Below are positions 30,531 through 52,377 of a stretch of DNA of 64,000 nucleotides, piece after piece (the stretch's first letter is position 1; the number at the start of each line of letters is the position of its first letter). The translations under genes and the position numbers were made by a program. Under the pieces are notes generated by a model. It saw only the letters and a list, made by a program, of their open reading frames with translations. It was not told the DNA's origin and did no database searches. Source of the stretch: Paludibacter jiangxiensis (GTDB lineage: Bacteria > Bacteroidota > Bacteroidia > Bacteroidales > Paludibacteraceae). The DNA lies in the NCBI RefSeq assembly GCF_001618385.1, contig NZ_BDCR01000004.1, forward strand, positions 434,001-498,000, read 5' to 3'.

Positions 30531-30538
30531 CAAAGATA
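30531..30538 (-). promoter_or_regulatory. Candidate -7 box for secA
   Basis: Minus-strand TATCTTTG fits TAnnTTTG, about 115 bases upstream of the ATG in an otherwise empty 196-base gap. No TTG at -33. Confidence 0.4.
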
Positions 30539-30611
30539 CTCTTTTTTCAGGAAGCGGGAGACATTTTAGTTAAAAAACAACCCTCTTCAGAGCAATGAAA
30601 AACCATTCAAA

Positions 30612-33500
30612 TCATTTCAGTTCTATCATAAATTCAGTCAGATTTTTCTCGGCACTAATATTCAGTTTTTTACGCAAGCGGTAACGTCCGGCTTCCACGC
30701 CTTTGAGTGAGATATTCATCAGGTTGGCAATATCCTTGGACGATAAATTGAGGCGCAGGTAGGCGCATAAGCGTAAATCGTTGGAGGTAAGCTCCGGATA
30801 ACGTGTATGCAGATTACGAAAGAAGTTCTCATGAATACGGTCGAAATTGGATTGAAAAACGGCCCAATCATCTTCCGACGATAGATTTTCATCAATAATG
30901 TGAACTATTTTATCGTAATACTTTTTCGGATATTGGCTTCCAAGATGTTCTTTCTGAAGCGTCAGTTCTTCTTTAATCCGAACCAGAATATCGTTTTTTT
31001 TGATAATGGACATGGTGGATCCCGCCAGTTCTTTGCTCTTCAGCATCACTTCGGTTTCCAATTTTTCCTTTTCCAGTTTCATGATTTGTTGCTCGCTTTT
31101 CTCTTTTTCCTGACGGCGGAGTTCTATGTGCTTTTGCTCTATTTTATCTCTCTTTTTTTTCTGTTCCGTTTTGATTAACAGGTAAATGGCCCTTATTGCA
31201 ATAACAAGCAGCAGGAAATAAAATATTTTAGCCCACACGCTCAGATAAAACGGAGGTAAAATTTCCAGATCATATGCCAATCTGTCTATCACTTCGCCGG
31301 TAGAAGCAACAACTTCTGCTCTGAAACAATACTTTCCGTATGGTAAACGAACGTATTCCTGCACAACCGAATTTTTAGGATCAGTCCATTTCTTGTCCCA
31401 ACCATCTAATTTGTAACGGAATCGAACATTTTCAATCTTGCTATAATTGGGATAAGCTATCGTAAACTGAATACTATTGAAGGCAAACGGCAAAGCATCC
31501 GGTTCGCTTAAGGCAACTGATTGGACTGCCGAATTGTCAGCACGATAAGCTGTAACGCTTTTCAAACACAATTTGAACGGAATTCCTGATTTGGATCGGT
31601 GTTCGTTCAGGTTGTAGAATGCAAGTCCGTTTTCAAGGCAAATCACGCACTGTGAATCCGAAAACGGGACAATGCTCTGGTTCTTATCGACATTTTCATT
31701 GGGAAAAGAACTGTAATTCACCACGTCCAAAATTCTCACTTTTTCATTTTCCACCTGTACCAAAGCCGCCATATCATCACGGATAAACCAATAGGTATTA
31801 TCGCGGAATGGCTCAATACGGTACGAAGAAGCAAAATTACGCAAGCCCGCGTTCAATGCCCGGAACGGGATGATTTCTTTGGTCAGGTCATTGAATGTAT
31901 AGAATCTTTCTCCATTTGTAAATACCACTCTGTTAGCCACTTTGAACACATTAATTGAAGTATGCGTTTTACCGCTAAGTGAAGTGTAGGTCTTCATCTC
32001 TCTGATATGCCGTAAGTCGCGATCGAGCACAATGCGATACAATCCTTCGTGGAAATGAGCTGCCCAGATGGTTCCCTGATAATCAATTTCCAAATAGCGG
32101 ATCGGATTGATAAAATTGTCTACTACATTGCTAAACACCCATTGTCCTCTGGCATCTTTCCGGTAAATACAAAGTTGCGTGTAAGTGCCCTGCACCAAAA
32201 CTTCCTGTCCGTTGATAACTCCCTGCTTAATACAAACGCCCCCACGAACCGGAGATGCAATGCTGATGCTATTGCCTGTCAAACAATAGGTTTCTTCATT
32301 ATTACAACAAAAGAGCTGATTGCCAAACCGTTTCAAATCCCACACCTGACCTTTGATACGGGAAACAAGCGAAACATTCACATTTTTATCGTCTTCACGC
32401 AAGCTGCCTATTTTTCCGGCATAGAGGCCTTGATTAGTGCCTATATAGATATCCGAGCCATACTTATCAAGTCCGTAAATGGCTCCGATAGAAGGTTGAA
32501 AAGATGTAACATATTTCACCCGGCTACCGGTGCGTACAAAAGCGATTCCCTTATCCAACGCCAGCCACACGTTATTGGCTCTGTCGCAATACATTCCAAG
32601 AATCGTGTTGTTTTGTAAAAAGTTGGTACTGTTTAGTTTCCATAATATTTTACCGGCTTTATTGACAGCCACTACCCCATCCAGAATCGTACCGATAACG
32701 AACACCGAATCGCTGGTAATAATCGCCCTGTTGGCATTGGCTTTTATCAGGAATTCATTAGCCTGACTTTCAAATCTTTTGCATTTACTTCCTTCCAGAA
32801 TAAAAAGTCCGTCGTGAGTCGTTACCAACAACGTTTTTGTGGCATCGTAAGGCAATACGGCCGTTATTGACGATTTCGGACATTCTCCTTCTATCACGGG
32901 ATGAAATTTATTTTTTGCCGGATCGTAGCGGCAAAGACTGCTTCCATCGACATGCGAATATATATTATTGCGATATTGATTAAAAAACAGGAAAGTACCC
33001 GACATCCGATGGCCGGTTATTTGCTTACCATCGAACACAAAAAAGGAAGCAAACGATTGAAAATAGATTTTACCCCGGCACGAGATAATTGTCCATATTT
33101 CATCATTTTGCATTTTGTAATTGCGAAGTTGCTGCGATAAAGAATGGTAACGTAATTCACCTGTAGAAAGCGGCTGAAAATATCCAAACTCTTCAAACGA
33201 ACCCACATAGATACGTCCGTCAGCAGCAGGTAATACGGAGCGAACCACGCGGTTGCCGGGCACCGGAAAAAGTTCCCAGGCGGCTCCGTCGTAACGCAGT
33301 AAACCATTATTGTTGCCGAAATAGAGAAACCCGTGAGCATCCTGTGCCACAGCCCAGTTCTGATTAGCTGCTTTGTATTCCTTTTTGGTAAAATTGGTGA
33401 CTACCGGAGCAAATTCTGCCCCTTCAGCAGAGAGCGGAAGAAAAACAAGAAATAGAAAATAGAGTGCGGTGATTTGTTTGCACAATGGAATATAACGCAT
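30612..33500 (-). CDS. Membrane-spanning one-component regulator (propeller, Y_Y_Y, LuxR-like HTH)
   Basis: 962 residues: signal peptide (ALYFLFLVFLPLSAEGA), a periplasmic region of Reg_prop beta-propeller repeats (~30-690), a Y_Y_Y domain (VRFRYKLDGWDKKWTDPKN), one TM helix near 755-777 (IFYFLLLVIAIRAIYLLI), a long charged coiled coil (~778-840), and a C-terminal HTH at ~902-960 (LTSNDLRLCAYLRLNLSSKD then NISLKGVEAGRYRLRKKL). There is no kinase H-box or receiver, so it should bind DNA directly in response to a periplasmic ligand, unlike hybrid two-component systems. It is divergent from the MFS transporter and flanks the glycan locus, so that locus is its likely target. Confidence 0.85.
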   Translation of the reverse strand: MRYIPLCKQITALYFLFLVFLPLSAEGAEFAPVVTNFTKKEYKAANQNWAVAQDAHGFLYFGNNNGLLRYDGAAWELFPVPGNRVVRSVLPAADGRIYVGSFEEFGYFQPLSTGELRYHSLSQQLRNYKMQNDEIWTIISCRGKIYFQSFASFFVFDGKQITGHRMSGTFLFFNQYRNNIYSHVDGSSLCRYDPAKNKFHPVIEGECPKSSITAVLPYDATKTLLVTTHDGLFILEGSKCKRFESQANEFLIKANANRAIITSDSVFVIGTILDGVVAVNKAGKILWKLNSTNFLQNNTILGMYCDRANNVWLALDKGIAFVRTGSRVKYVTSFQPSIGAIYGLDKYGSDIYIGTNQGLYAGKIGSLREDDKNVNVSLVSRIKGQVWDLKRFGNQLFCCNNEETYCLTGNSISIASPVRGGVCIKQGVINGQEVLVQGTYTQLCIYRKDARGQWVFSNVVDNFINPIRYLEIDYQGTIWAAHFHEGLYRIVLDRDLRHIREMKTYTSLSGKTHTSINVFKVANRVVFTNGERFYTFNDLTKEIIPFRALNAGLRNFASSYRIEPFRDNTYWFIRDDMAALVQVENEKVRILDVVNYSSFPNENVDKNQSIVPFSDSQCVICLENGLAFYNLNEHRSKSGIPFKLCLKSVTAYRADNSAVQSVALSEPDALPFAFNSIQFTIAYPNYSKIENVRFRYKLDGWDKKWTDPKNSVVQEYVRLPYGKYCFRAEVVASTGEVIDRLAYDLEILPPFYLSVWAKIFYFLLLVIAIRAIYLLIKTEQKKKRDKIEQKHIELRRQEKEKSEQQIMKLEKEKLETEVMLKSKELAGSTMSIIKKNDILVRIKEELTLQKEHLGSQYPKKYYDKIVHIIDENLSSEDDWAVFQSNFDRIHENFFRNLHTRYPELTSNDLRLCAYLRLNLSSKDIANLMNISLKGVEAGRYRLRKKLNISAEKNLTEFMIELK

Positions 33501-33571
33501 GGTGATTAAGGTTGAAATATTGCCTGATTTTTTCTTTCGAAACCATTATTGATCAGGACTAAATAACGCTA

Positions 33572-33579
33572 CAAATATA
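33572..33579 (-). promoter_or_regulatory. Candidate -7 box for the membrane regulator
   Basis: Minus-strand TATATTTG fits TAnnTTTG, 72 bases upstream of the regulator ATG; no strong -33 element. Confidence 0.42.
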
Positions 33580-33669
33580 AATCATTTTGGTAATTTGGAA
33601 CTATCCGGTTCTAAATTAAAAAAACGCTAATTATATTCTTATTCAATAACACTCTGTTCATAAGACGAG

Positions 33670-33677
33670 TAACTTTG
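33670..33677 (+). promoter_or_regulatory. Candidate -7 box for the MFS transporter
   Basis: TAACTTTG fits TAnnTTTG, 27 bases before the ATG, the usual distance for a short leader. The -33 region lacks TTG. Confidence 0.45.
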
Positions 33678-33703
33678 CAAACTCAGATTAAGAAGCAAAA
33701 AAG

Positions 33704-34879
33704 ATGTATAAAACATTATGGAACAGGGACTTCATTTTATTGACCATGTCGAATTTCCTGTTGTGTATTACCTATTATTCGCTCATTTCCACCCTTCCGG
33801 TTTATTTAGCCGACAGTCTTCATGCCGACAAAAGTGCAATCGGGCTTGTGCTGGCTGCCTATACCATCGCTTCGGTGACGGTTCGTCCGGTGTCTGGCTT
33901 TGCCCTTGATAAATTCGGAAGAAAGATGATACTCGTCAGTGCATTAACACTCTATTCAGCACTGTTTATCGGCTACATGTTTGCTCTTTCTATTGCATTG
34001 ATCACGGTACTCCGCTTCATGCAAGGACTTGGCTGGGGCATTTCCACCATCTCCGGGTCAACCGTCGCCGTTGACATTATTCCTAATGAAAAAAGAGGCG
34101 AAGGTATCGGCTTTTATACGCTCTCCACCACCCTAGGCATGTCCGTAGGACCTGTAATCGGATTGTTGCTGGTACATCATGGAAGCTACCTGCTTATGTT
34201 TGCCGGAATGCTTGTCATATCCATTATCGCCATTGTTTGTGCCGGCATTGTCAAAGTGCCCCGAAACATTCCTCATGCGACCAATATGGGCTTCAATCTG
34301 CATAATCTCTTCGAACCAAAGGCTGTATTGCCTTCGATTAATCTGTTGATAATAATGACTGCGTACGGAGGTTTATTATCGTTTGTCGCTCTTTACGGAA
34401 AGGAAGTCGGCGTACATGACACCTCCCTGTTTTTTCTGGTTTTTGCTGCAGGAATAGCCATTTCGCGAATCACAGTAGGCAAAACTTTTGACAAAAACGG
34501 ACCTGCTGTTATTCTCACCTTTTGTCTTATACTTGATATTCTGGGATTTACCGTGCTGGCTTTATTGAAAAATCCGTTCGGATATTTCATATCGGCCATT
34601 CTGATCGGCTTTGGCAACGGAGTCGTTTTTCCGGTTTTTCAAACAATGGTGAACAATGTGGCAGAACCGGCTCACCGTGGAGCCGCCAACTCTACGCTCT
34701 ACACGGCACTCGACCTCGGAATGGGTGCCGGTATGATCCTGATCGGGTTCATATCCGAGCACACATCCTTGTCGCTTGCTTTCATTTGTTGCGCCGTAAT
34801 TTGCCTTGCTGGCCTTGCTCTATTCCGCTTCAGGGTATTGAGCGATTATCTGTCGAAAACACTACAAACCAAGCATTAA
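33704..34879 (+). CDS. MFS transporter, 12-TM type
   Basis: A 391-residue inner-membrane major-facilitator protein with alternating hydrophobic helices over its whole length. The cytoplasmic loop 2-3 signature is GFALDKFGRKMILVSA (the DxxGRR-like motif), and FMQGLGWGISTISGSTVAVD and IIPNEKRGEGIGFYTLSTTL follow, a pattern shared with sugar and drug efflux carriers. Its position next to a glycan-sensing regulator and tail-to-tail with a GH144-type gene suggests uptake of the released sugar, which is inference only. The stop codon overlaps that of the convergent enzyme gene by four bases, so no terminator separates them. Confidence 0.88.
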   Translation: MYKTLWNRDFILLTMSNFLLCITYYSLISTLPVYLADSLHADKSAIGLVLAAYTIASVTVRPVSGFALDKFGRKMILVSALTLYSALFIGYMFALSIALITVLRFMQGLGWGISTISGSTVAVDIIPNEKRGEGIGFYTLSTTLGMSVGPVIGLLLVHHGSYLLMFAGMLVISIIAIVCAGIVKVPRNIPHATNMGFNLHNLFEPKAVLPSINLLIIMTAYGGLLSFVALYGKEVGVHDTSLFFLVFAAGIAISRITVGKTFDKNGPAVILTFCLILDILGFTVLALLKNPFGYFISAILIGFGNGVVFPVFQTMVNNVAEPAHRGAANSTLYTALDLGMGAGMILIGFISEHTSLSLAFICCAVICLAGLALFRFRVLSDYLSKTLQTKH

Positions 34880-36522
34880 TAAGTAAAGCCCAGCTTTGTC
34901 AACCCTTGCTGAATATCACTGTTTTGCATAAACAGATGCCAAAGCAATTGCGTACGATAATTTTCTATCATCACCACAATCGGTCCTTCGTCGATTGCCA
35001 GATATGAGTTGGAGAACCAAGGTGTATTGAGAGAGAATGCATCGTAAAAGCCGTAATTGCTCCAGAGTTTGTCTCCTAGCATATAATAGAAAAAACGTGC
35101 AGCACGAAGGCTTTCGTTAGGCGTGTAAGGCATGGACGAAAGGGCCGCCGTTGGTGCAATCACACCTAAGTCATTGATAGGCGAACTTGCCGAATATCCG
35201 TTCGGAATATCGCTTGCTGTCAATCCCCAAGAGTCGGCACTATAGCCGTAATAGCCTCCCGGATTTCGAATGCAGTACATATTATTAATCTTGGCATGAG
35301 CCGTGTTTTGTTGCCAATAAGAGGCATATTGGTCTCTCAGGTTACGCGGATCGAGCCCTAAAAAAGAGTAATGCGTAAAGAATAACGGTCCTCCGTAATC
35401 GCTTCCCAAGGGTAAAATTGTCCCTTCAAACGTCTTACCATTCGTTATTCCGCCATTTTTAGCCCAGCCATTGGTATAAACCTCTTTGGGTATTGAATGA
35501 GTTGGAGAAGCAGCCGCCAGTATATACACAATCAAAGCCTCATTATAGCCTGCTATAGGCATATTCATTGCCCAGCCGTAATCGGGCGACCAATGCCAGT
35601 AAAGGACGTTCTGTCCGTTTTGGCGATACCAATCCCATTCCACATTCTGCCACAATTTTTGAATAGTATCGCACATTGCCTGTTCGCTTGAATTCCCGTT
35701 TTTGAAATACTCACGAACGGACAACAATCCCTGCATCATAAAGGCTGTTTCAACCAAGTCTCCTCCATCATCTTTTGTGCTGAACGGGATAACCTTTCCT
35801 GTTGTTCCGTTCATCCAATGCGGAAACGCGCCATGGAATTTATCGGCCTGTGTATTGAGAAAATTAACCACTTTATTGATGCGCGAAAAACCATCTGAAC
35901 GTGTAAGAAAACCTCTCTCGATACCCACTAGCATTGCCATTAGTCCGAAGCCGGAACCGCCAGTAGTAACAGTCTCGCCCGAACCAAGCCGCTCACGAGC
36001 CATACCCGAAACCGGATGAGCATAGTCGGTAAAATAACTCAAGGTTTTCTGCTGTATTAATGTCAGCAGATCATTATCCGAAAGAGTTGGGAATTTGGCA
36101 GTGCTATCGATGGCGGTCATATATTGCGACGAGAAACCGGTCACAATTTTCCCTCCAAGATTAACTCCGGTATTTATTGAAAATGTAAACGAAGTCAATG
36201 GCGCTACCGAAGCAGTAGAGGTCAAAACAATAGTCTGTTTATTATCGCCTTGCGTAGCCTTGTAGTTTGAACCGATTGTACCTCCGAACGACAAGCCGGA
36301 GGTAACGATAGAGCTGGGATCGACTGTATTATTGAAAACGATCTTTGCGACCTGAACACCACCTGCAACGCCATGAAAATTTCCATTATTAGTTAATGAA
36401 GAGCCGTTGATCTGTACGCTGACAACAGACAATGAAGTAACATCCGGCACAACCGGTTCGTTATTTTTGCCACATGAAGCAACAATAATGATAATAGCTA
36501 ATAAAAAACTCAATTTTCTCAT
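34876..36522 (-). CDS. GH144-type (glycoamylase-like, PF10091) lipoprotein with N-terminal Ig-like domain
   Basis: 548 residues from ATG 36522, a lipoprotein (MRKLSFLLAIIIIVASC); an ATG four codons earlier is possible. After a bacterial Ig-like domain (~30-140) comes the glycoamylase-like (alpha/alpha)6 barrel: DYAHPVSGMARERLGSGETV, TTGGSGFGLMAMLVG, KDDGGDLVETAFMMQGLLSV, WHWSPDYGWAMNMPIAGYNE, GGPLFFTHYSFLGLDPR, ADSWGLTASD and AIDEGPIVVMIENYRTQLLW. Characterised GH144 members are endo-beta-1,2-glucanases. It shares almost every motif with the 44164-45726 protein, so the two are paralogues; only this one carries a lipobox and Ig domain, suggesting the surface copy. It is the last gene of the locus. 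Confidence 0.88.
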   Translation of the reverse strand: MRKLSFLLAIIIIVASCGKNNEPVVPDVTSLSVVSVQINGSSLTNNGNFHGVAGGVQVAKIVFNNTVDPSSIVTSGLSFGGTIGSNYKATQGDNKQTIVLTSTASVAPLTSFTFSINTGVNLGGKIVTGFSSQYMTAIDSTAKFPTLSDNDLLTLIQQKTLSYFTDYAHPVSGMARERLGSGETVTTGGSGFGLMAMLVGIERGFLTRSDGFSRINKVVNFLNTQADKFHGAFPHWMNGTTGKVIPFSTKDDGGDLVETAFMMQGLLSVREYFKNGNSSEQAMCDTIQKLWQNVEWDWYRQNGQNVLYWHWSPDYGWAMNMPIAGYNEALIVYILAAASPTHSIPKEVYTNGWAKNGGITNGKTFEGTILPLGSDYGGPLFFTHYSFLGLDPRNLRDQYASYWQQNTAHAKINNMYCIRNPGGYYGYSADSWGLTASDIPNGYSASSPINDLGVIAPTAALSSMPYTPNESLRAARFFYYMLGDKLWSNYGFYDAFSLNTPWFSNSYLAIDEGPIVVMIENYRTQLLWHLFMQNSDIQQGLTKLGFTY

Positions 36523-36524
36523 AT

Positions 36525-38624
36525 TCACTGGCATTTAACCGGTTTTGACAACAGTGATACCCCACTCTCGCCTAATGCTTCAATAGCAAACCAATAATTG
36601 GTGTCCTTATCCAGACCTCTCATGTCGTATGTAGTTGCATCATACACTGTAATGCAGTTGTAAAGCTGATCCGGAGCTATTCCGAAGCGAATATTGTAAC
36701 CGTAGGCTCCGGCTACAGCTTGCCACTTTATCGTTGCATTGCGGGTATCTTTCTTGTCTCTTACGGTTACAAATTTACTAACTACTGCAGGTGTTTGTCC
36801 TTCCGATTTGCCGAATACCCGGAAATCCATCAACGCAAAATTACCGCTTGCCGAATGGACGTTTTCAATTTTCAGGTAACGTGTTGCCAGGGGTTGCTTC
36901 AGTTCCACATAGTCGTGAGGAACGTCGAGATCGTTATTGCTTTTATCTACCGTCAATTGCCAATTTTTGCCATCGGGCGAGGCGAAAATTTTGTACTGAT
37001 GATACACATCCATTGCTTTACCACATTGGTTTGCTTTGTGTTCATAATAATTGACCTGAATGGCGTTAACCTGTTTTTCAGCGCCTAAATCCATTACAAA
37101 CCACTCTCCGGGATTGCCGGTAGCGGCAGCCCAATACGTCCTCATGTTTTCATCAGCCGCATTTTCGGGCTGGTAGATGCTGTCGGATGATGAAGCCCAC
37201 ACCTTTTTGTGCAACGACAGCAACATCCAGCCGGTAAAGTTGCCTTTAGCATGATCTTCGGAAGCACGCGGAATCGTGGTGGGATAATCGCCGAACGCAG
37301 TATTGGCAAACAAAGTACCCTCCTTATCAAATCCTGCCGGATAGAGTCCGATACGACGTTCAAACGTTTCTCTGAGCGACAACATACAGGTGGCTATGTG
37401 CCAGTAGTTTCCGTAATTATCTTTGAATGTTCCGCCATGTCCGGCCCCCAACACAAAACCTCCGGGTTTGTATGAAAACGGATTGTGTCGTTGATAAACG
37501 AATGGTCCTAACGGCTTGTCCGACACGTAAACGCCATCGGCATACACTTTGAATTCGGTACCGGGAGCTCCATACTGAAGATAATATTTCCCATCGTGCT
37601 TCGTCATGAACGAACCTTCAACAAAGGGTTTAAGTGTTACAGAATCATCATTGTTCATTCCGAAGCGCTCCCATCCGTGAAGCTCGGGATGCAACAGAAT
37701 CAAATCATGGATAACGCTTTTGGGACGAAAGGATGCACGATCGTATTCAACGCCTTTAGTCGGGAATTCGTTGCTGGAACCATAATAAAGATACAGACGT
37801 CCATCATCGTCGAGAAAAAGATCTGGATCCCAGTGAGGCAGCAGAGCCGTTTCTGCCAGATGTTTCCATCGACCGTCGTCAGGGTGAGTTGTGTACCAAA
37901 CCGGCAACTCTTTATACGTAGAGCCGAGCATTACCAATGTATCGCCAAACACTTCTACTGCGGGAGCGCACGGATCGTCATCGTTGGGTTTACGCTGAAA
38001 ACCGGCGAAAACGTATTTCCATTTTGTCAAATCATCCGAAACGTAATAACCGGATTGATTGGTCGAAAAAAGGTAATATTTTCCTTTATACGGCACAATC
38101 ATCGGATCGGCGGTAGATCTGCACGAAATGCCTTTGTTGTTGCTATGGTTGAAATATTCAAAGTTATAGTCAATATTTACCGGGTTGCAATAAGTTTTCG
38201 GACGATCATTGTCCGGATCGAACCAGGGAGTTGCCTGTGATTGTTGACGCGTGATAGAATGATTCTGGTGATCGGGAAACATACGCAAGTTAATCGTAGT
38301 GAGGATTGGTGAGATGGGAGTCTCGGTAAATTTCATGCCGGGAAAATAGCAAACCAATGACTTGTCGTCCGGGCTGACCGTCATTGTAAAACGGCCTTGG
38401 CCATCACTTGAAGCGGAAACCACCCCGTGTTTCACCATAAGTTGAGCTCCGGGCAATGGAGCGCCTGTGCTGTCTGTAACGATACCTTTTATTTGATATG
38501 TCATTACAACGGGTATGTTATACTCGGTTATCTGCCCTTTTATGGTTTTGGTTTGAGAATTTGACATAACAAACCCACAAAAAAAGAGCAGGATAAAATT
38601 CGAAAAACGGACTGTGTTATTCAT
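36525..38624 (-). CDS. GH43-like five-bladed propeller with carboxypeptidase-like, F5/8-C and FN3-like domains
   Basis: 699 residues with signal peptide (FSNFILLFFCGFVMSNSQ). Order: a carboxypeptidase-regulatory-like domain (YQIKGIVTDSTGAPLPGAQL, ~45-110), a GH43-type propeller (~140-470) with ADPMIVPYKGKYYLFSTNQS (catalytic-base-type Asp), HWDPDLFLDDDGRLYLYYG and VEGSFMTKHDGKYYLQYG (acid-type Glu), then an F5/8 type C domain (~475-600; AADENMRTYWAAATGNPGEW) and an FN3-like end (ATIKWQAVAGAYGYNIRFG). GH43 enzymes usually act on arabinose- or xylose-containing glycans; a beta-glucan-related or other specificity is equally open here. It has the three acidic positions, so it may be active. It comes after a terminator hairpin and is translationally close to the next gene. 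Confidence 0.82.
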   Translation of the reverse strand: MNNTVRFSNFILLFFCGFVMSNSQTKTIKGQITEYNIPVVMTYQIKGIVTDSTGAPLPGAQLMVKHGVVSASSDGQGRFTMTVSPDDKSLVCYFPGMKFTETPISPILTTINLRMFPDHQNHSITRQQSQATPWFDPDNDRPKTYCNPVNIDYNFEYFNHSNNKGISCRSTADPMIVPYKGKYYLFSTNQSGYYVSDDLTKWKYVFAGFQRKPNDDDPCAPAVEVFGDTLVMLGSTYKELPVWYTTHPDDGRWKHLAETALLPHWDPDLFLDDDGRLYLYYGSSNEFPTKGVEYDRASFRPKSVIHDLILLHPELHGWERFGMNNDDSVTLKPFVEGSFMTKHDGKYYLQYGAPGTEFKVYADGVYVSDKPLGPFVYQRHNPFSYKPGGFVLGAGHGGTFKDNYGNYWHIATCMLSLRETFERRIGLYPAGFDKEGTLFANTAFGDYPTTIPRASEDHAKGNFTGWMLLSLHKKVWASSSDSIYQPENAADENMRTYWAAATGNPGEWFVMDLGAEKQVNAIQVNYYEHKANQCGKAMDVYHQYKIFASPDGKNWQLTVDKSNNDLDVPHDYVELKQPLATRYLKIENVHSASGNFALMDFRVFGKSEGQTPAVVSKFVTVRDKKDTRNATIKWQAVAGAYGYNIRFGIAPDQLYNCITVYDATTYDMRGLDKDTNYWFAIEALGESGVSLLSKPVKCQ

Positions 38625-38635
38625 AAAAAAGATAA

Positions 38636-38666
38636 GAAAAGGGTTGCGAATACCACAACCCTTTTC
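38636..38666 (-). terminator. Hairpin terminator between the LamG and GH43-like genes
   Basis: An 11-bp perfect stem (38636-38646 GAAAAGGGTTG with 38656-38666) with a 9-base loop, followed on the minus strand by TTATCTTTTTT. It sits 25 bases past the LamG stop and would reduce read-through into the GH43-like and second GH144-type genes. Confidence 0.75.
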
Positions 38667-38690
38667 CGTTTTTAATAATCAGAGATGAAC

Positions 38691-39554: not shown

Positions 39555-39583
39555 ATTTCTAATATTTAATAGTTAACCATAAA

Positions 39584-41050
39584 TTACCAGTCGGGATTTT
39601 GAGTAAGTTTTCCCTGTGCTTTATCAATAATAGTTTGAGGGATAGGATAATACTTACATTTGTCGGTATATCCTTTGGATCCTAAAACAGTCAAAGCATC
39701 ACCCCAACGAACCAAATCAAAGAAACGTTCACCTTCCATAGCAAATTCAGCACGACGCTCCTTCTTAATGGCCGCACGTAAAGCAGCCTGATCGGTGGTA
39801 GTTATTGCAGGCAAAACATTGGCACCGCCTCTGGCTCTGGCCCTGATCATTTCGAGATATTTAAGTGCTTTGGCACTGTTCCCCGATTCATTTGCAGCTT
39901 CAGCCGCCATCATAATTACATCCGCGTATCTCAACAAGCGAACATTCAGCCAATTGGCATATTTGATACCTGTTGCTGCTCTTCGTGCCGGATTGGAATA
40001 TACTTTACGATTCCAGTAGGGCTGAATTGATCCCAATGAAGCAGGAACTGTCAAACCATAGCCATCTGAACCTCCCGAATAGAGTATGGTAGTAGTTTTT
40101 CTCGGATCGCCGGCTTCATATGAGTCAACCAAATCCTGACTCGGAACATTCCATCCCCAGCCTAAATCCCAGTCGCCACTACCACGAACACCCTGAGAAC
40201 CGTTGTAATTATTGTTATAACTGGTAGTTCCGTTGCTACTTACATAGTTTTGAGCTTCAAGCATCGATTCGGAAGAATTTTCACCGTCTTCGGTAAAGAA
40301 TTTGTCATAAGACCCCAGTAAGCTGTAGTTGCCAGAATTAATTACCGTTTCACACAATGATAATGCCCCAGCCCAGTCTTTCTGATACAATTTAACCTTT
40401 GCAAGCAATCCGTTAGCCGTGCCATTGGTCACACGCCCCGCATAGTTACTGGCCCACGATGATGGCAAATGAGCAGCCGCATAAGCCAAATCTTCTGTAA
40501 TGAATGTATATATCTGAGCAACTGTTGATTTTTCGATATTGGCATCACCGATATTATAAATTTTGAAATTAATAAGAGGAACGGCACCAAAAGTGCGAAC
40601 CAGATCAAAATAGGCATATCCCCTTAAAAAGCGGGTTTCCGCGCGATTGATGATATCGCCTGCCGATTCCAGCTTCAATGAATCCATCAGTTGAAGAATA
40701 TCATTGCAGTCGTTAATCATGGTATAGTGCGCATTCCAGTAGTCAAGAGTAAGCCAACTTTCAGCCTTGTTATATTTGTAGTAATCGGCAATTTGTTCGT
40801 AGGCGGCACCATCAGTTGGCGTACTGCCTTTGATGGCATCGTCGCTTCTCATAGTGTGCATAAAGGCATACGGTAAACCGGATACACCTTCAGCTCGTAA
40901 ATCGCCATATAGTCCAAAGACTTTTCCTTCTACTCCGCCCACAGTAAGATCTCCTTCTGTAGCCGTTGCGAGAGGTTTTCTGTCCAAAAAATCGGAACAA
41001 CTTACCAGCAATAATAAAATCGGTAAGATTAGTAAATATATCTTTTTCAT
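39584..41050 (-). CDS. SusD/RagB family glycan-binding lipoprotein
   Basis: 488 residues, lipobox at ILPILLLLVSCSDFLDRKPL. The fold is visible from an N-terminal SusD-like part (FMHTMRSDDAIKGSTPTDGA) and TPR-type helices (ETRFLRGYAYFDLVRTFGAV, KVKLYQKDWAGALSLCETVI) to the C-terminal RagB region (LRYADVIMMAAEAANESGNS, IKKERRAEFAMEGERFFDLV, YPIPQTIIDKAQGKLTQNPD). It caps the SusC channel and hands oligosaccharides to it. It lies 22 bases downstream of SusC in the same operon. The ligand is inferred from the locus, not from this sequence. Confidence 0.95.
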   Translation of the reverse strand: MKKIYLLILPILLLLVSCSDFLDRKPLATATEGDLTVGGVEGKVFGLYGDLRAEGVSGLPYAFMHTMRSDDAIKGSTPTDGAAYEQIADYYKYNKAESWLTLDYWNAHYTMINDCNDILQLMDSLKLESAGDIINRAETRFLRGYAYFDLVRTFGAVPLINFKIYNIGDANIEKSTVAQIYTFITEDLAYAAAHLPSSWASNYAGRVTNGTANGLLAKVKLYQKDWAGALSLCETVINSGNYSLLGSYDKFFTEDGENSSESMLEAQNYVSSNGTTSYNNNYNGSQGVRGSGDWDLGWGWNVPSQDLVDSYEAGDPRKTTTILYSGGSDGYGLTVPASLGSIQPYWNRKVYSNPARRAATGIKYANWLNVRLLRYADVIMMAAEAANESGNSAKALKYLEMIRARARGGANVLPAITTTDQAALRAAIKKERRAEFAMEGERFFDLVRWGDALTVLGSKGYTDKCKYYPIPQTIIDKAQGKLTQNPDW

Positions 41051-41072
41051 AATTCTATGGTATTAAATGGAA

Positions 41073-44000
41073 TTAAAAAGTGATGTTCACACCCACAGTA
41101 GTTACGGCCGGCACAGGATAACCACCGTTGTCATATCCGAATTTAGTAGCACTACCTCCGGCTTCAGGAGTAAAGCCCGAGTTATGCTTCCATGTTACAA
41201 GGTTCTGTCCGCTTACATAAACTCTCAGTTTCTCTATATTCATTTTTTGCAACAGTTTATGATCAAATGAATAACCCAACTGAACATTACGCAAACGCAG
41301 GTAACTTCCGTCTTCAATCATATAGGTAGAAGGCAAATTGTTATTGGCATCATTTCCAACCTTCGGTTCCCAATTGGAAGTTCCGGCTCCGGTCCAGCGA
41401 CCCAAACGATCCTGTCTGTAATTGAATACGGCATAAGAAGAACCGTTACCCCAATCACGCCAGATTTCATTTCCATATACACCCTGGAATTCGATTGATA
41501 AATCAAAGTTTTTGTAGTTGGCTGATGCGCTCAGTCCGTAGGTAAAATCAGGCGTAGGATTGCCTATAATAGTACGATCTGCATCTGTAATTTTTCCGTC
41601 ACCGTTCAGATCCTTAAATTTCAAATCGCCGGGACCGTAATCGGCTAAAGTATTCACCGGACTGGCTAACTTATCAGCATACGACTGATAAACGCCTTCA
41701 ACAACATATCCATAGAATGATCCGATAGGCGATCCGGCCTGTGTAATTGAATTACCATCATAGTAAGCATAACCCGGTTTCCAGACACTTAACACTTTAT
41801 TACGAATTGTAGTAATATTTCCAGATACATTAAATGTCAAACCATTAGCTAACTTCTGATTCCATGATGCAGTGAATTCAAAACCATTGTTTTTAACAGA
41901 ACCCGAATTCGTGTAAAAATTATTGCTGCCATCATTTACGTAAGTCAACAGGTCTTTTGTGCGTTTTTCGTAATAGTTGGCTTCAAAATGAAGTCGGCTA
42001 CCAAGGAAGTCGGCTTCAAATCCACCTTCGTACGAATCCACGGTTTCCCACTTTAGGTTTGGATTATTTTTGTAGGCCAATTCATAAGCCGGAACAATAT
42101 TGGAACCGAATACAGCTGAAGAGCCTGCTACATAGTTAGGATAGTACGGATAGTGTACCGCATTGTACTGATTTCCCAATTGACCCAGAGACGCTTTAAT
42201 CTTCAGGTTATTGAACACTTTCTGATTCTGCATGAACTTTTCTTCGCTCATAAACCAGGCTCCACCCAATGCCCAGAAATTCTGATAACGATGACTGGGA
42301 GAGATTTCAGAAGATCCATCGCGACGGAACGAACCATTCAGATTGTATTTTCCTTTATAACTGTAGAGAGCACGGAACAGCATCGATACTGTAGATCTGT
42401 CCCATTCTGAAGGATTGTCTTTGTCTGCAACAACCACTCTGGTTTCAGGGTCTCCATAAGGATAAACATCAAGATACCACCAACGTTTGTCATAAGGAAT
42501 CACAGGAGCTCCGGCATAAGAATACTGGTTCACTTTACCGCTAACCTGGCTATAGTCTTCATAGAATGTGGTAAAACCGCCCAGCAAAGTCAGATTATGC
42601 TCGCCAAATTTCTTCTTATAGGTTAACAGATAATCCTGTTGAATCTTGGTATACGTGTTTTTATACTGGCTAACAGATGACAAAGTATTCCAATCGACCA
42701 CCTGACCTGATTCAGCAGCATACACCTGATATTTAGGAGTATATGTACGACCATTGTTAAAACCTAAATCGGCAAAGTAATTGGCCTTCAATGTGAGATC
42801 TTTAAACAGCGTCCATTCTATAAAACCATTACCAATAAACCGGTATTCGTTGTTGAGCTGCGTGTATTTGTTCCCTTTTACAAACATCAACGGATTACCA
42901 ATTTGAGGACCTCCAATATCATCAGGTAACTTATTATACACATTGTAAGTCGTATTGTACGGTTCAACAATTGGAGTTGCATTCAATGCCGAAATAAAAT
43001 CGTGCAATTGAGGTAAATTTGCTTTGTAGGCATTAACGTTCACTCCAACTTTGAAGTGCTTATTAATTGTCAGTTCATCATTGAGGCTGACGGTTAACTT
43101 GTTGTATGTTTCATATTTAATCAAGCCTTCCTGATACAAATACCCTGCCCCAAAATAAAACTTATTTTTCTCATTCCCACTCGAAATACTCAGGTTGTGA
43201 GATGTAACAATGGCATTGCTTTGTTTAATCTGGTTAATCCAGTTTGTATTACCTTGGAACAAGTCATAGCGACCATATGCAGAAGCTCCCTGATTGATTC
43301 TTTGTTCATCGTAAAGAGTTATAAAACCATTACGATCAGTCATATCAGGTGTTCCAACAATATTCTGTACACCAACAGACGAATTGAAATTGACAGTCAC
43401 CTTTCCCAGAGCTCCTTTCTTGGTCGTAATAATGATGGCACCGTTAGCACCCCGTACGCCGAAAATTGCTAGTGACGAAGGGTCTTTAAGGACTTCCATC
43501 GAAGCAATATCCTCCGGATTGATAAAGTTGATATTGTCGTTGAAAATCCCATCGACAATGTACAACGGCTTTGTCTGGTTGCGGCTGATAGTTCCCCGAA
43601 TTCTGATATCGGGTTCAGAACCAGGTTTTCCACTATTAACAACCGACAAACCGGCTACTTTTCCTTGCAACGAAGAGATAGGGTTGGAATTCGGTTTGTT
43701 TTCAAGATCTTTTGACGACACTTTCACAATCGATCCGGTCAGGTCTCTTTTATTAGCCGTACCGTAACCAATTACAACCACCTCGTCTATTTTAGTAGTC
43801 GACTGTTTCAATTTTACATTGACTGTCTGAGAGTTTTCAACCTGTAATTCTTCTGTTTCATATCCAATGAAAGAAAACTGAAGAACGTTTCCTTTTGTAA
43901 CATTCAGAGTAAAAGCACCGTCAAGATCGGTGGCCGTTCCCTGTTTTTGCCCTTTCACAACAACGCTAACTCCCGGAAGAGTTTCGTTAGTTTCTGCATC

Positions 44001-44093
44001 CCGAACAATGCCCGAGATTTTTAGATTTTGTGCCAGCATCTGTAACGAGAAGGCACTCAGCAGAATCAGAATAAAACTGATTTTCTTTTTCAT
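41073..44093 (-). CDS. SusC/RagA family TonB-linked outer-membrane transporter
   Basis: 1006 residues: signal peptide (ISFILILLSAFSLQMLAQ), CarboxypepD_reg-like domain (~24-105; ISGIVRDAETNETLPGVSVV), then the SusC signature DEVVVIGYGTANKRDLTGSI, plug (VDGIFNDNINFINPEDIASM, GVRGANGAIIITTKK) and a large barrel ending VTTVGVNITF. In the late barrel, DADRTIIGNPTPDFTYGLSA and YLRLRNVQLGYSF are hallmarks of the family. It imports oligosaccharides together with SusD through TonB. First of the SusC-SusD-LamG run, 70 bases after the GH144-type gene, so one transcript from the GH3 promoter is plausible. Confidence 0.96.
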   Translation of the reverse strand: MKKKISFILILLSAFSLQMLAQNLKISGIVRDAETNETLPGVSVVVKGQKQGTATDLDGAFTLNVTKGNVLQFSFIGYETEELQVENSQTVNVKLKQSTTKIDEVVVIGYGTANKRDLTGSIVKVSSKDLENKPNSNPISSLQGKVAGLSVVNSGKPGSEPDIRIRGTISRNQTKPLYIVDGIFNDNINFINPEDIASMEVLKDPSSLAIFGVRGANGAIIITTKKGALGKVTVNFNSSVGVQNIVGTPDMTDRNGFITLYDEQRINQGASAYGRYDLFQGNTNWINQIKQSNAIVTSHNLSISSGNEKNKFYFGAGYLYQEGLIKYETYNKLTVSLNDELTINKHFKVGVNVNAYKANLPQLHDFISALNATPIVEPYNTTYNVYNKLPDDIGGPQIGNPLMFVKGNKYTQLNNEYRFIGNGFIEWTLFKDLTLKANYFADLGFNNGRTYTPKYQVYAAESGQVVDWNTLSSVSQYKNTYTKIQQDYLLTYKKKFGEHNLTLLGGFTTFYEDYSQVSGKVNQYSYAGAPVIPYDKRWWYLDVYPYGDPETRVVVADKDNPSEWDRSTVSMLFRALYSYKGKYNLNGSFRRDGSSEISPSHRYQNFWALGGAWFMSEEKFMQNQKVFNNLKIKASLGQLGNQYNAVHYPYYPNYVAGSSAVFGSNIVPAYELAYKNNPNLKWETVDSYEGGFEADFLGSRLHFEANYYEKRTKDLLTYVNDGSNNFYTNSGSVKNNGFEFTASWNQKLANGLTFNVSGNITTIRNKVLSVWKPGYAYYDGNSITQAGSPIGSFYGYVVEGVYQSYADKLASPVNTLADYGPGDLKFKDLNGDGKITDADRTIIGNPTPDFTYGLSASANYKNFDLSIEFQGVYGNEIWRDWGNGSSYAVFNYRQDRLGRWTGAGTSNWEPKVGNDANNNLPSTYMIEDGSYLRLRNVQLGYSFDHKLLQKMNIEKLRVYVSGQNLVTWKHNSGFTPEAGGSATKFGYDNGGYPVPAVTTVGVNITF

Positions 44094-44163
44094 AGTTCTG
44101 ATTTTGTGTTAATTAATTCATGACAATCTATTTTCTTAATTTATGGAATGCCCGTATCAAATA

Positions 44164-45726
44164 TTATTTGTACTGAAATCCCAATTTTTTTATTCCGTTA
44201 CCAATCTCTTCATTTTGCATAAAGAGAGTCCAGAGTAAGCCGCTCCGGTAGTTCTCAATCATCGTAGCAATCGGTCCCTGATCGATTGCCAGATACGATC
44301 GAACTACCTGTTGGCCTGATACCATGTTCAGGTTAAAAGCATCATAAAATCCATATTTGCCTAATAATTCTTTACCTAAATCGTAATAGAAATGGCGGAA
44401 TACAGGTAACACTTCCTGCGGGGCATAAGGCAAAGACGAAAGCGCTGCTGTTGGAGAAACAGTACCATTTTCATCAGGTGTACCCGGATGATGCGAGGTA
44501 TATCCAACCAATGGATCGTCAGAAGAAGTAAATCCCCAACTATCGGCTCCGTAGCCTTTGTATTTCTTCGGGTTTGCCATTGCATAAGCACGGTGAATCA
44601 AGACATGATTTCTATTCCGGTCCCAAAAATCGGCATCTTTGTTGCTTAGGCCTTTAGGATTCAGCCCCAGAAAAGAGTAATGGGTAAAAAACAACGGGCC
44701 GCCGTATTCCATGCCCAACGACAGCGGTATTCCAAAATAACTTTTGCCGTTTTGATAGTATGGTGAAGTTCTCCAGCAATTGAACACTTCCGGTCGAATC
44801 GGGTGCGTGGGCGAAGATGCCGCCAATACGTATGTAATAAGGGTTTCATCAAAGCCTTTTATCCGATGACGCATTTTGAATCCATAGTTCTTTGACCAGT
44901 GCCAGTAAAGTGAGTCTGTACCGTCCGTATACCAGTTCCAGTCAATTTCTTCCCACAGTTTTGTGATACGCGACGAAAGTGTTTTTTCCTTATCGTTTCC
45001 ATTCTTAAAATACTGACGGGCAGTAAGCAAGCCCTGTGTAAGGAAGGCTGTTTCTACAAGGTCTCCCCCATCGTCATATTGACTAAAATTGAAAACCTTA
45101 CCTGTGTTTCCATTGTACCAGTGCGCCCAAGCTCCATGAAAACGATCAACCCTTTCAAGGAAAGAAACAATCTGATCGATTTTATTCATGGCTTGTTCCC
45201 GCGGAAAATAATTACGCTGAGCCCCAGCCACTAACGCCATAATCCCGAAGCCCGTACCTCCGGTTGTCACTATATCTCCATGATTATCGTTGCTTCGCTC
45301 GCGAGCCATACCACAGTCGGGATGAGCCAGATCAAAGAAATAACGGGTCGTATAGCGCTGAACCATGTCAATCAGCTGGTCATCCGTGAATTTATGGGTC
45401 GTTGCTTTGCATTCGAATTTTGCGGCAGCTTTGTCTGTAACATTCATTCCTTTGGGTACGACTCTATACACCAAATTCCTTTCTCCCACAGATTTACCCG
45501 GAAAATCAAGATAAAATCCGGAGTTGTTTTCCGCTCTCTTTTGAAAATGAATGCCATGATCTGTCGAGAGATAAATCTCGTAGGTAAAACCGGGCAGATT
45601 GGCATACGTTATTTCAACATGCGCATCATAACCTGTAGCCCGAAGCGACTCCGGCACAATATATTTCTGTGCAGTCAACAACGGCATACAGGCTGTTGCC
45701 ATTAAAAGAATTAATAATCGAAACAT
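44164..45726 (-). CDS. GH144-type (glycoamylase-like, PF10091) enzyme, secreted
   Basis: 520 residues with signal peptide MFRLLILLMATACMPLLTAQ; Cys13 is in the hydrophobic core and not a good lipobox, so a soluble periplasmic enzyme is likely. An FN3-like part (~25-105) precedes the (alpha/alpha)6 domain: DLAHPDCGMARERSNDNHGD, TTGGTGFGIMALVAG, YDDGGDLVETAFLTQGLLTA, HWSKNYGFKMRHRIKGFDET, GGPLFFTHYSFLGLNPKG, YGADSWGFTSSD and AIDQGPIATMIENYRSGLLW. These parallel the 34876 paralogue. Characterised GH144 proteins cleave beta-1,2-glucan to short sophoro-oligosaccharides. It lies 12 bases after the GH3 gene, which would finish the hydrolysis. Confidence 0.88.
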   Translation of the reverse strand: MFRLLILLMATACMPLLTAQKYIVPESLRATGYDAHVEITYANLPGFTYEIYLSTDHGIHFQKRAENNSGFYLDFPGKSVGERNLVYRVVPKGMNVTDKAAAKFECKATTHKFTDDQLIDMVQRYTTRYFFDLAHPDCGMARERSNDNHGDIVTTGGTGFGIMALVAGAQRNYFPREQAMNKIDQIVSFLERVDRFHGAWAHWYNGNTGKVFNFSQYDDGGDLVETAFLTQGLLTARQYFKNGNDKEKTLSSRITKLWEEIDWNWYTDGTDSLYWHWSKNYGFKMRHRIKGFDETLITYVLAASSPTHPIRPEVFNCWRTSPYYQNGKSYFGIPLSLGMEYGGPLFFTHYSFLGLNPKGLSNKDADFWDRNRNHVLIHRAYAMANPKKYKGYGADSWGFTSSDDPLVGYTSHHPGTPDENGTVSPTAALSSLPYAPQEVLPVFRHFYYDLGKELLGKYGFYDAFNLNMVSGQQVVRSYLAIDQGPIATMIENYRSGLLWTLFMQNEEIGNGIKKLGFQYK

Positions 45727-45738
45727 AGAAATGAGATT

Positions 45739-48027
45739 TTACTGTTCAAGGGAGAACATTGTTTTCTTTACATCTCGCGAGTTGCCGCCTACGTACACCT
45801 CAAATTCTCCGGGTTCAGTACCAAAAGTCATATCTGCACGATAGAAGGCCAGCATTTGCGGTTTTATGATAAAACTGACGGTTTTGGTTTCTCCTGCTTT
45901 CAGGAAGATCTTTTCAAAACCTTTCAGCTCTTTTACCGGCCGTGTAACGCTGCCTGCTAAATCGTGCAAATACATTTGAACTACCTCTGCACCGTCTTTT
46001 TTGCCTGTGTTTGTAACCTGACAGCTAACGGTGATGCTGCCATTTGCGTGTAATTTTGATGATGAAAGTACCGGAGTAGAATAGTCGAACGAAGTGTAGC
46101 TAAGTCCGTATCCAAACGGATAAAGCGGGGAATTGGGAACGTCCAGGTAAACAGAACGGAATTTCTCAAATTGATCTTCTTCATGTTCCGGTCTGCCAGT
46201 AGGTTTATGCGCGTAATAAATAGGTATTTGACCCACATTGCGTGGGAATGTGGCTGTCAGCTTACCACTCGGATTAACATCTCCGAACAAGACATCCGAA
46301 ATGGCATCGGCGGCCATAGTGCCTCCAAACCATACATTCAGTATGGCCGGAATATTTTCATTCTCCCAACCCAATGTGAGCGGGCGTCCGGTAAACAGCA
46401 CCAATACAACCGGCTTTCCTGTTTGAGCCAAAGCTCTGAGAAGCTCTTTCTGCGTATCCGGAATAGAAATATCAGACCGGCTTGCACACTCTCCGCTCAT
46501 TTCGGATGATTCGCCTACAGCTGCCACGATAACATCGGCCTGTGCAGCTACTTTCAGTGCTTCATCCAAAATTTCTTTTGCAGGACGGTTATCGCGATTC
46601 GTGGTTTTTCCAAACACGCTGACCCTTTTTTCCATTTCCTCGTCGGCAAAAATATTCGAGCCTTGTGCATACACTATTTTTGCCTTATCGCCTACTGCCG
46701 CCTTCATCGTTTCATAAAGTGTTGCCGGCTTGGAAAAATCAGCTGCTACCGACCATGTACCGCACATATTTTCTCTGTTATTGGCCAACGGACCGATTAA
46801 TGCAATAGTTCCGTTTTTCTTCAAGGGCAATAAATTGTTCTGATTCTTTAGCAAGACAAAGCTTTCTGCTGCTGTTTTGCGGGCAAAATTCAAATTTTCC
46901 GGTGTAAAAATCTCCGTTTTAGCACGGTTCTCATTACAATATTTATAGGGATCTTCAAATAGTCCCAGCTTCAGTTTTGCAATCAATACTGATTTACAGG
47001 CATCGTCAATCTCTTTTTGTGTAATTTTTCCTTCCCGAAGTGATTGTTTCAATGTTTTCAGAAATCCTTCGCTTACCATATCCATGTTTACTCCGGCTTT
47101 CAAAGCCAAAGCCGATACTGTCTGTAAATCGCCCATGCCATGAGCTGTCATTTCGGAAATACCTGTATAATCGGTAACTACAAAACCTTTAAAGCCCCAT
47201 TGTTTGCGCAACACGTCTGTGAGTAGCCATTTATTGCCTGTCGCAGGAATACCGTCAATTTCGTTGAATGAAACCATTACCGATCCACAACCGGCATCAA
47301 TAGCTGCTTTATATGGTGGCAAATAATCTTCATACATTCTGCGTTTGCTCATATCCACCGTGTTGTAATCGCGTCCGGCTTCGGCTGCACCATACAACGC
47401 GTAATGTTTTACGCAGGCCATAATATTATTGTTATGAGAGAGGTCTCCCTGATACCCCTTCACCATTGCTTTTGCAATCAAAGAGCCGAGATACGGATCT
47501 TCTCCGGAACCTTCGGCAATCCGTCCCCAGCGAGGGTCGCGTGCAATATCCACCATTGGAGAAAAAGTCCAGCATATACCATCGGCACTGGCTTCAATGG
47601 CAGCAATGCGTGCCGTTTTTTCTATCATCGGCAGGTTCCATGTGGAGGATAATGCGAGAGGAATAGGAAAAGTGGTTTCGTAACCATGTATAACATCCAT
47701 GCCGAAAATAAGAGGAATATGTAAACGGCTTTGTTCAACGGCTACCTTTTGCATGGCTTTAATCTTCGCAACCGATTTTATATTGAACAATCCGCCAACC
47801 AATCCTTGTTTAACTTTACCTCCGATATCGGAATTTTGTGCCTGACCTGTTACAAAATCGCCGGCTCCCGGCAGATTGAGTTGTCCTATCTTTTCCTCCA
47901 GCGTCATCAGTTTCATAATTGAATCCGCACGATATTCAATTCGTGATACAGGACGCGCAGGTGTATTTTTAAAAGAGGAAAATAAGACAAACAAGAAAAG
48001 TAAAAGAAGAGAAGTAGCTTTTTTCAT
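45739..48027 (-). CDS. Glycoside hydrolase family 3 beta-glucosidase-like enzyme
   Basis: 762 residues from ATG 48027 (MKKATSLLLLFLFVLFSSFK signal); a longer in-frame start adds 13 implausible residues across the promoter. Three GH3 parts are visible: the TIM barrel (~30-370; LMTLEEKIGQLNLPGAG, FSPMVDIARDPRWGRIAEGS, KHYALYGAAEAGRDYN), the nucleophile Asp in FKGFVVTDYTGISEMTAHGM, the alpha/beta sandwich (~400-620; AVGESSEMSGECASRSDI with the acid/base Glu region) and a C-terminal FN3-like domain (VTNTGKKDGAEVVQMYL). Typical of exo-beta-glucosidases; together with two GH144-type enzymes a sophorose/sophoro-oligosaccharide specificity is suggested. First gene of the operon. Confidence 0.93.
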   Translation of the reverse strand: MKKATSLLLLFLFVLFSSFKNTPARPVSRIEYRADSIMKLMTLEEKIGQLNLPGAGDFVTGQAQNSDIGGKVKQGLVGGLFNIKSVAKIKAMQKVAVEQSRLHIPLIFGMDVIHGYETTFPIPLALSSTWNLPMIEKTARIAAIEASADGICWTFSPMVDIARDPRWGRIAEGSGEDPYLGSLIAKAMVKGYQGDLSHNNNIMACVKHYALYGAAEAGRDYNTVDMSKRRMYEDYLPPYKAAIDAGCGSVMVSFNEIDGIPATGNKWLLTDVLRKQWGFKGFVVTDYTGISEMTAHGMGDLQTVSALALKAGVNMDMVSEGFLKTLKQSLREGKITQKEIDDACKSVLIAKLKLGLFEDPYKYCNENRAKTEIFTPENLNFARKTAAESFVLLKNQNNLLPLKKNGTIALIGPLANNRENMCGTWSVAADFSKPATLYETMKAAVGDKAKIVYAQGSNIFADEEMEKRVSVFGKTTNRDNRPAKEILDEALKVAAQADVIVAAVGESSEMSGECASRSDISIPDTQKELLRALAQTGKPVVLVLFTGRPLTLGWENENIPAILNVWFGGTMAADAISDVLFGDVNPSGKLTATFPRNVGQIPIYYAHKPTGRPEHEEDQFEKFRSVYLDVPNSPLYPFGYGLSYTSFDYSTPVLSSSKLHANGSITVSCQVTNTGKKDGAEVVQMYLHDLAGSVTRPVKELKGFEKIFLKAGETKTVSFIIKPQMLAFYRADMTFGTEPGEFEVYVGGNSRDVKKTMFSLEQ

Positions 48028-48063: not shown

Positions 48064-48094
48064 CAAAGTTATTGCGTCAAAATTGAGTTGTCAA
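48064..48094 (-). promoter_or_regulatory. Promoter of the glycan-utilisation operon
   Basis: Minus strand: TTG at 48094-48092, about 20 bases, then TAACTTTG at 48071-48064. This fits the Bacteroidetes -33/-7 consensus (TTG N19-20 TAnnTTTG) better than any other site in the window. It leaves a leader of about 30 bases before the GH3 ATG. Confidence 0.6.
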
Positions 48095-52344: not shown

Positions 52345-52377
52345 GTTATATCCTTATATTGTTACAAATTGCGTTTA

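Follow-up and report, generated by a model that had tools for sequence, protein, structure and literature searches.

Which glycan does Paludibacter jiangxiensis take up with a gene block that sets a GH43-family protein and a SusC/SusD pair beside two homologs of beta-1,2-glucanases? The block lies at positions 30612–48027 of the 64,000-nucleotide stretch of contig NZ_BDCR01000004.1 that we analysed (hereafter the window). From sequence comparisons, we conclude that it is very probably a polysaccharide utilization locus (PUL) that captures, imports and depolymerises the beta-1,2-glucan of other bacteria, with an exchangeable import module. Its enzyme part is ordinary, and this kind of locus is already known. 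The parts worth following are the GH43 partner and the apparently repeated exchange of the importer, both going beyond the account in an earlier note made by a model from the DNA letters.

Gene content of the locus

The candidate beta-1,2-glucan locus comprises seven genes on the minus strand, from 48027 to 34876, in the order GH3, GH144a, SusC, SusD, LamG, GH43L and GH144b. The gaps between them are 12, 70, 22, 29, 66 and -10 bases, so the seven likely form one operon. It has an adjacent, co-directional SusC/SusD pair accompanied by carbohydrate-active enzymes, the arrangement by which a Bacteroidetes PUL is recognised. The MFS gene, on the opposite strand, is convergent to the operon and shares 4 bases with the end of GH144b; the membrane regulator lies beyond it. 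Every gene that the earlier note named is an open frame where the note placed it, and Pfam and NCBIfam searches confirmed the claimed block of a GH3, two PF10091 proteins, SusC, SusD, LamG, a GH43-like protein, an MFS transporter and a one-component sensor. The ATG of GH3 is located at 48027, in agreement with the end coordinate of the block in the earlier note; the list of open frames instead begins this gene at a TTG at 48066.

45739–48027, minus strand: GH3 beta-glucosidase, gene 1 of the likely operon (PF00933, 1.5e-77, PF01915 and PF14310; BglX equivalog; BT3567 match)
44164–45726, minus strand: GH144a, beta-1,2-glucanase homolog (PF10091, 3.4e-71; CpSGL match; Glu pair)
41073–44093, minus strand: SusC-type transporter, lineage A (TIGR04056, 2.2e-254; lineage from tree)
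39584–41050, minus strand: SusD-type lipoprotein lid, lineage A (PF07980, 3.3e-31, and PF14322; lipobox by eye)
38691–39554, minus strand: LamG-domain lipoprotein, putative surface glycan-binding protein (PF13385, 7.9e-14; lipobox by eye)
36525–38624, minus strand: GH43L, with CarboxypepD_reg, GH43, F5/8C and a C-terminal region (PF04616, 1.6e-20; weak C-terminal Fn3 match)
34876–36534, minus strand: GH144b, beta-1,2-glucanase homolog, predicted lipoprotein (VASC, by eye; PF10091, 8e-74)
33704–34879, plus strand: MFS transporter, probably non-core (PF07690, MFS_1, 5.2e-55)
30612–33500, minus strand: membrane one-component regulator with Reg_prop propeller, Y_Y_Y and LuxR-type helix-turn-helix (Pfam and NCBIfam matches)
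38558–44079, no strand: exchangeable cassette of SusC, SusD, LamG and the first ~67 bases of GH43L (blastn against L040)
48064–48071, minus strand: TAACTTTG, promoter-element match 5' of GH3 (fits TAnnTTTG)

The element TAnnTTTG is what we take to be the Bacteroidetes -7 promoter element; upstream of GH3 only TAACTTTG was found, and the full two-part Bacteroidetes promoter pattern had no match there.

The enzymes point to beta-1,2-glucan

The earlier note had proposed beta-1,2-glucan as the target, and this prediction is well supported because the locus has two GH144 proteins with the catalytic Glu pair and a BT3567-like GH3, and SOGP domains occur in a related locus. GH144b and GH144a matched CpSGL (5gzh, GH144) with 518.4 and 460 bits, respectively. 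Glu142 and Glu211 of CpSGL correspond to Glu262 and Glu332 in GH144b (spacing 70) and to Glu225 and Glu294 in GH144a (spacing 69); E211 is reported as the general acid of CpSGL and E142 as the candidate base (PMC12102758). Against GH144a, 8wy1, which is named glycosyltransferase 36, reached 21.3 bits as a pairwise score only.

The GH3 protein scored 924 bits with the BglX equivalog model (cut-off 666) and matched BT3567 of B. thetaiotaomicron (5xxl) over nearly its full length with 1059.8 bits; its Sec signal, read by eye, makes it probably periplasmic. JMB19063 (3u48) outscored BT3567 with 1157.3 bits, so similarity leaves the specificity of GH3 unsettled. The SOGP domain (PF21958, 1.7e-50) was found in genome G034, beside related enzymes and a lineage-B SusC/SusD pair, on two neighbouring stretches of one contig (L044 and L045); the Pfam scan found none in the window locus. 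At 6449–14243 of L044, the SOGP stands in one locus with an MFS_2 protein and a GH35 that carries a GLMA-like domain. An Ignavibacterium GH144 cluster is reported to include an SOGP homolog and a GH35 beta-1,2-glucosyltransferase (PMC8861115). As a separate observation, the SOGP, GLMA-like GH35 and MFS_2 of L044 could form a phosphorolytic route in this relative.

The window genome has only two PF10091 genes, GH144a and GH144b, neither within a larger synthase frame; the target glucan is therefore probably made by other organisms rather than by the host. Another genome, G184, is without a separate PF10091 gene of ordinary size.

PULs with GH144 have been reported as abundant (PMC6499787), and GH144-GH3-SusCD PULs were found in fosmids (PMC6550366). 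The window locus shares with these PULs and with known GH144 enzymes (CpSGL, BDI_3064) the GH144 catalytic pair, the GH3 and the SusC/SusD pair, and differs in having two GH144 proteins, GH43L and LamG.

GH43L is a recurrent partner of GH144

The earlier note had considered a GH43-like protein unusual in such loci, a view that did not hold. Searching the GTDB collection, we found 188 stretches that matched GH43L, 118 of which were relatives; locus counts use the best 80 of these 118, with up to 10 kb of flank fetched. GH144 was present in 69 of these 80 loci, GH3 in 66, SusC in 61 and SusD in 57; a homolog of the regulator was present in 34, and homologs of MFS and LamG (E up to 1e-20) in two each. 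Three of the 80 come from genomes that were already compared (G114, G078 and G147), and longest-first calling of open frames missed GH43L itself in 2 of the 80. A frequent gene order was SusC-SusD-GH43L-GH144-GH3, for example in Bacteroides xylanisolvens XB1A (L129), and GH144-linked relatives of GH43L were spread over several Bacteroidota families. The nearest records by GH43L were L066, a 'Bacteroidota bacterium' metagenome-assembled genome (MAG) identical to the G114 sequence, and L067, a Paludibacter MAG identical to G078.

Genome searches gave a similar linkage. The long form of GH43L occurs in 7 of 150 genomes of the family, at 65–100% identity, and all seven have PF10091 genes in the same region (the second copy in G114 lies on another contig). 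Among 295 genomes of the order, PF10091 lay within 15 kb for 16 of 18 GH43L hits of at least 49% identity and for 2 of 15 weaker ones, with the cut chosen after the values were seen and 33 of 34 rows used (the second piece of the G272 gene was omitted). The converse linkage is weaker: of the 295 genomes, 71 have PF10091 and 28 have a GH43L-like gene. In each genome, the searches scored only a handful of first-look candidates (at most 7, 3 or 2, depending on the search).

GH43L retains Asp173, Asp266 and Glu336, which we take to be the GH43 catalytic triad. All three occur in 85 of the 86 clade rows (the remaining row has a gap) and in 12 of 12 paralogs, the clade here meaning all 86 rows outside the 12 paralogs, GH144-linked or not. 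Eleven near-fixed positions separate the two sets, including S170 for E, Q190 for S, C219 for Y and M323 for D, and one of the eleven lies three residues ahead of the presumed catalytic base. The GH43L tree (96 rows, 93 different) has one set of 84 rows (73 linked to GH144, 11 not; SH-aLRT 99) with the paralogs apart; one GH144-linked row (L078_16034) falls outside this set, and long branches are flagged in the tree. We infer that GH43L is an active enzyme with changed specificity.

Matches of GH43L in the PDB were weak (best 6.7e-08), as was the Fn3 match of its C-terminal region (E 0.11). Residues 44–121 resemble the N-terminal part of SusC (TIGR04056, 4.2e-09), and shorter relatives of ~590 aa that adjoin GH144 match from about residue 140 onward only. 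The GH43 proteins with F5/8C from xylan loci share the GH43 and F5/8C domains and the predicted triad with GH43L, which differs by its separate clade, its near-fixed substitutions and, in the long form, an extra N-terminal CarboxypepD_reg domain. Literature searches found no GH43L partner or role described for GH144 with GH43, and nothing on GH43 together with beta-1,2-glucan; PULDB, subscription papers and supplementary tables lay outside both searches, and GH144-GH43 loci have likely been listed earlier in PULDB or such tables. GH43L represents a widespread type of GH43-family protein that accompanies beta-1,2-glucanases, and we found no activity assigned to it.

One alternative is a mixed glycan as substrate, in which beta-1,2-glucan or sophorose is combined with pentose or other sugars (as in a sophoroside from plants or an exopolysaccharide from bacteria) and from which GH43L removes a non-glucose sugar by ordinary GH43 chemistry, as a xylosidase or arabinofuranosidase. 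The retained triad fits this, and several paralogs adjoin GH67, GH115, GH8, a feruloyl-esterase-like protein and Xyl3A; others adjoin GH31 or GH2. Against it, Pfam detected no other pentose-related family in the operon, the GH144-linked clade departs from the 12 paralogs at the eleven positions given above, and compact loci such as L129 have only GH43L, GH144 and GH3 after SusCD on that strand. We consider a mixed glycan with this role for GH43L less likely than not. Apart from this, one locus of G147 (L158) carries two GH43L paralogs, near GH2 and a GH3-like gene.

SusC, SusD and LamG form an apparently exchangeable cassette

Next to its sister species G078 (L040), the window has a sharply bounded difference. 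By blastn the two share 90% DNA identity at 28123–38557 and at 44080–47666, with no collinear match between; collinearity runs from a SecA gene through the regulator to GH144b, and then from GH144a into GH3, with sharp edges. Forced alignment inside the cassette gave 12–59% in inner blocks of 200 columns, against 68% for the block that borders the SusC edge. At the protein level the regulator is 95% identical, MFS 96%, GH144b 95%, GH43L 91% and GH144a 93%, as against 37% for SusC, 33% for SusD and 31% for LamG (28–40% for these three, depending on method). SusC-SusD-LamG is thus, as read from these alignments, an exchangeable import cassette, of lineage A here and of lineage B in the sister species and most relatives examined.

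Genome G114, a separate assembly, has the lineage-A cassette as in the window with both junctions, across two contigs, at 98–100% protein identity, so SusC is not simply fast-evolving. As a possible sign of foreign origin, we compared third-position GC content, which is 0.36–0.39 in SusC, SusD and LamG and 0.40–0.47 in the other operon genes. We also considered whether G114 shares the cassette through recent transfer and rejected this, since the cassette's fourfold-site identity of 76.9–91.5% overlaps the 79.4–84.7% of neighbouring genes.

The same pattern recurs in other pairs. In L105 and L110, GH43L, GH3 and GH144b are 83–87% identical and SusC 39%; in G147 and G001 the four enzymes are 77–90% identical and SusC 38%; and in G147 and G034 the values are 83% for GH43L, 76% for GH144b, 68% for GH3 and 40% for SusC. 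Such natural matched pairs, with the same enzymes and another importer, permit a direct test of the role of SusCD in substrate choice.

By analogy, the closest precedent that we found is ragAB of Porphyromonas, where divergent SusCD-type alleles occupy one locus and horizontal transfer has been proposed (PMC11817032). The window locus likewise has divergent SusCD in a single slot with conserved flanks. It differs in degree, since the reported variation reaches 30% in ragA and is 47–48% in ragB (PMC11817032), whereas the SusC and SusD of the window and its sister species are only about one-third identical. It also differs in that both lineages are met again across the order, beside the same kinds of enzyme.

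Two importer lineages share one slot

The SusC tree separates the lineages A (7 rows), B (16) and C (2), every one of them set off by a 100/100 branch. The rows of A include G156, which clusters with the unlabelled G077 next to the six other A rows. Assigned to their best lineage, 59 SusC rows in GH43L loci comprised 51 of B, three of A, three of D and two of C; all of the D rows and one of the C rows are second SusCs past the GH43L gene. At E up to 1e-190, lineage A was found in 4 of the 295 order genomes, each time within 10 kb of PF10091, a count that includes the window genome and G156 at only 40% identity. Lineage B occurs in 29 and lies within 10 kb of PF10091 in 24; in the other five, the SusC contig is without PF10091, which is found elsewhere in the genome.

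When the lineages are placed on a 44-row GH43L tree (36 rows of B, 6 of A and 2 of C, with 17 of the 51 lineage-B SusC loci left out), the label A requires four changes, all four forced by starred branches. One rests on the long-branch row L171, without which three remain by inspection. It is therefore probable that the import slot was filled anew three or four times, and each of the two importers concerned serves GH144 loci.

Alternatively, lineages A and B could descend from two ancestral loci of which one or the other was lost, with no exchange in place. Between genera, SusC divergence equals enzyme divergence within each lineage (72% for A against 70% for GH43L; 68% for B against 69%), so both lineages are old, as this explanation would have it. 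Against it stand the sharp edges between the window and G078, with collinear DNA of 90% identity to either side, and the best match of the lineage-B SusC in the window genome is that genome's own lineage-A SusC, at 36% (no search of G078 for a further SusC of lineage A was made); we regard differential loss as improbable. An assembly or binning artefact is more improbable still: the compared records are mostly MAGs, but the separate assembly G114 repeats the cassette with both junctions, lineage B stands in the same gene context in G104, G033 and G034, and L105/L110 repeats the pattern. In the G104 locus (L043, 9365–12757), SusD and GH43L are separated by a NAGLU-type glycoside hydrolase and a weak match to DUF5009.

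LamG, MFS, regulator and hints of decoration

The earlier note had also called LamG unusual in such loci. LamG-domain proteins follow SusD in L040, L174 and L072 as well, although a relative of this particular LamG protein was present only in the 2 of 80 loci given above. The LamG protein had no PDB match at E up to 0.1.

That the locus has its own MFS transporter is a weaker claim. The gene is convergent, its best solved-structure matches are NorA efflux pumps, and the two loci with a relative are those of the two sister species; it probably lies outside the locus core. In G114 (L041, 7280–8455) the MFS gene reads as two shorter frames of 227 and 148 aa, from a frameshift or an assembly error.

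NCBIfam response-regulator models match the last ~60 residues of the membrane regulator, which would therefore end in a LuxR-type helix-turn-helix; Pfam and NCBIfam scans gave no hit to a kinase domain in it.

A decorated glycan, suggested earlier, finds indirect support in relatives and none in the window locus, which has no GDPD, Exo_endo_phos or esterase-like gene. L171 carries a GDPD gene in or at the end of its locus (10360–11394). A protein of ~290 aa occurs in five related loci (L105, L110, L124, L132 and L134), and the three that were scanned all matched Exo_endo_phos; phosphodiesterase-type genes thus lie inside related loci at 14588–15460 of L105 and 14605–15477 of L110. Esterase-like proteins occur in the related loci L070 and L078. 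The cyclic beta-1,2-glucan of Sinorhizobium is reported to carry glycerophosphoryl or succinyl groups at C6 (PMC7569799), and the phosphodiesterase-type and esterase-type genes of relatives fit a decorated glucan, those of the phosphodiesterase type agreeing with phosphoglycerol groups on cyclic glucans.

A proposed route and what weighs against it

From the families and from signals read by eye, GH144b would cut the glucan chain at the cell surface. The LamG and SusD lipoproteins would bind the fragments and SusC import them; in the periplasm, GH144a would shorten the fragments and GH3 free glucose. GH43L may act on some bond or side group of the glucan, and the membrane regulator would sense a glucan fragment and turn the operon on. 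The levan and dextran utilisomes are reported as complexes of SusC and SusD with a glycan-binding lipoprotein and a glycoside hydrolase, both at the cell surface (PMC7618045). The window locus, known from its genes alone, also has SusC, SusD, a putative glycan-binding lipoprotein and a predicted surface glycoside hydrolase; it differs in that SusC, SusD and LamG change together while GH144 stays. A single surface complex of SusC, SusD and the lipoprotein would explain their joint movement.

Several observations count against a beta-1,2-glucan PUL with a fixed GH43L partner and a discrete cassette. GH144 was absent from the flanks of 11 of the 80 GH43L loci; some of these are short contigs or contig ends, and L076, L086 and L115 lack it despite at least 20 kb. 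GH43L is not essential, because at the thresholds used it was missing from two genomes of the same genus, G033 and G093, that do have GH144. The BT3567-type GH3 is reported to cleave laminaribiose (Lam2) as well as Sop2 (PMC12369401). A B. xylanisolvens PUL with the GH144 homolog Bxy_22790 also has a GH35, reported to cleave beta-1,2-galactooligosaccharides and not beta-1,2-glucooligosaccharides (PMC11739564), so PF10091 in a PUL is no proof of its target. Finally, in L105/L110 the regulator (61%) and the 290-aa protein (68%) also diverge more than the enzymes, so cassette edges may vary between loci.

The possibility that the window locus corresponds to this GH35 (Bxy_22780) locus was rejected, since XB1A has three PF10091 genes and the relative of our locus is L129 (2.61 Mb). 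The PF10091 gene assigned by position to Bxy_22790 scores lower, at 168.7 bits; it lies at 2.79 Mb, and we took it as Bxy_22790 from locus-tag spacing.

A more ambitious version of our reading is tentative, and we hold it somewhat less probable than not. The cassettes would be interchangeable, with two GH144-dedicated lineages replaced repeatedly, either for different glucan forms (cyclic, linear or decorated) or in evasion of phages, and GH43L would bring a new specificity for beta-1,2-glucan or its decoration. Beta-1,2-glucans are described as symbiotic or pathogenic factors of the bacteria that produce them (PMC12102758), which makes Bacteroidota that eat them ecologically interesting.

Elsewhere in the window, an open frame at 24664–25632 matched only coiled-coil-like families (ApoLp-III, Rad50/SMC), and two UDP-sugar dehydrogenases and a Wzz/AAA protein at 51001–56082 mark a likely capsule or exopolysaccharide region.

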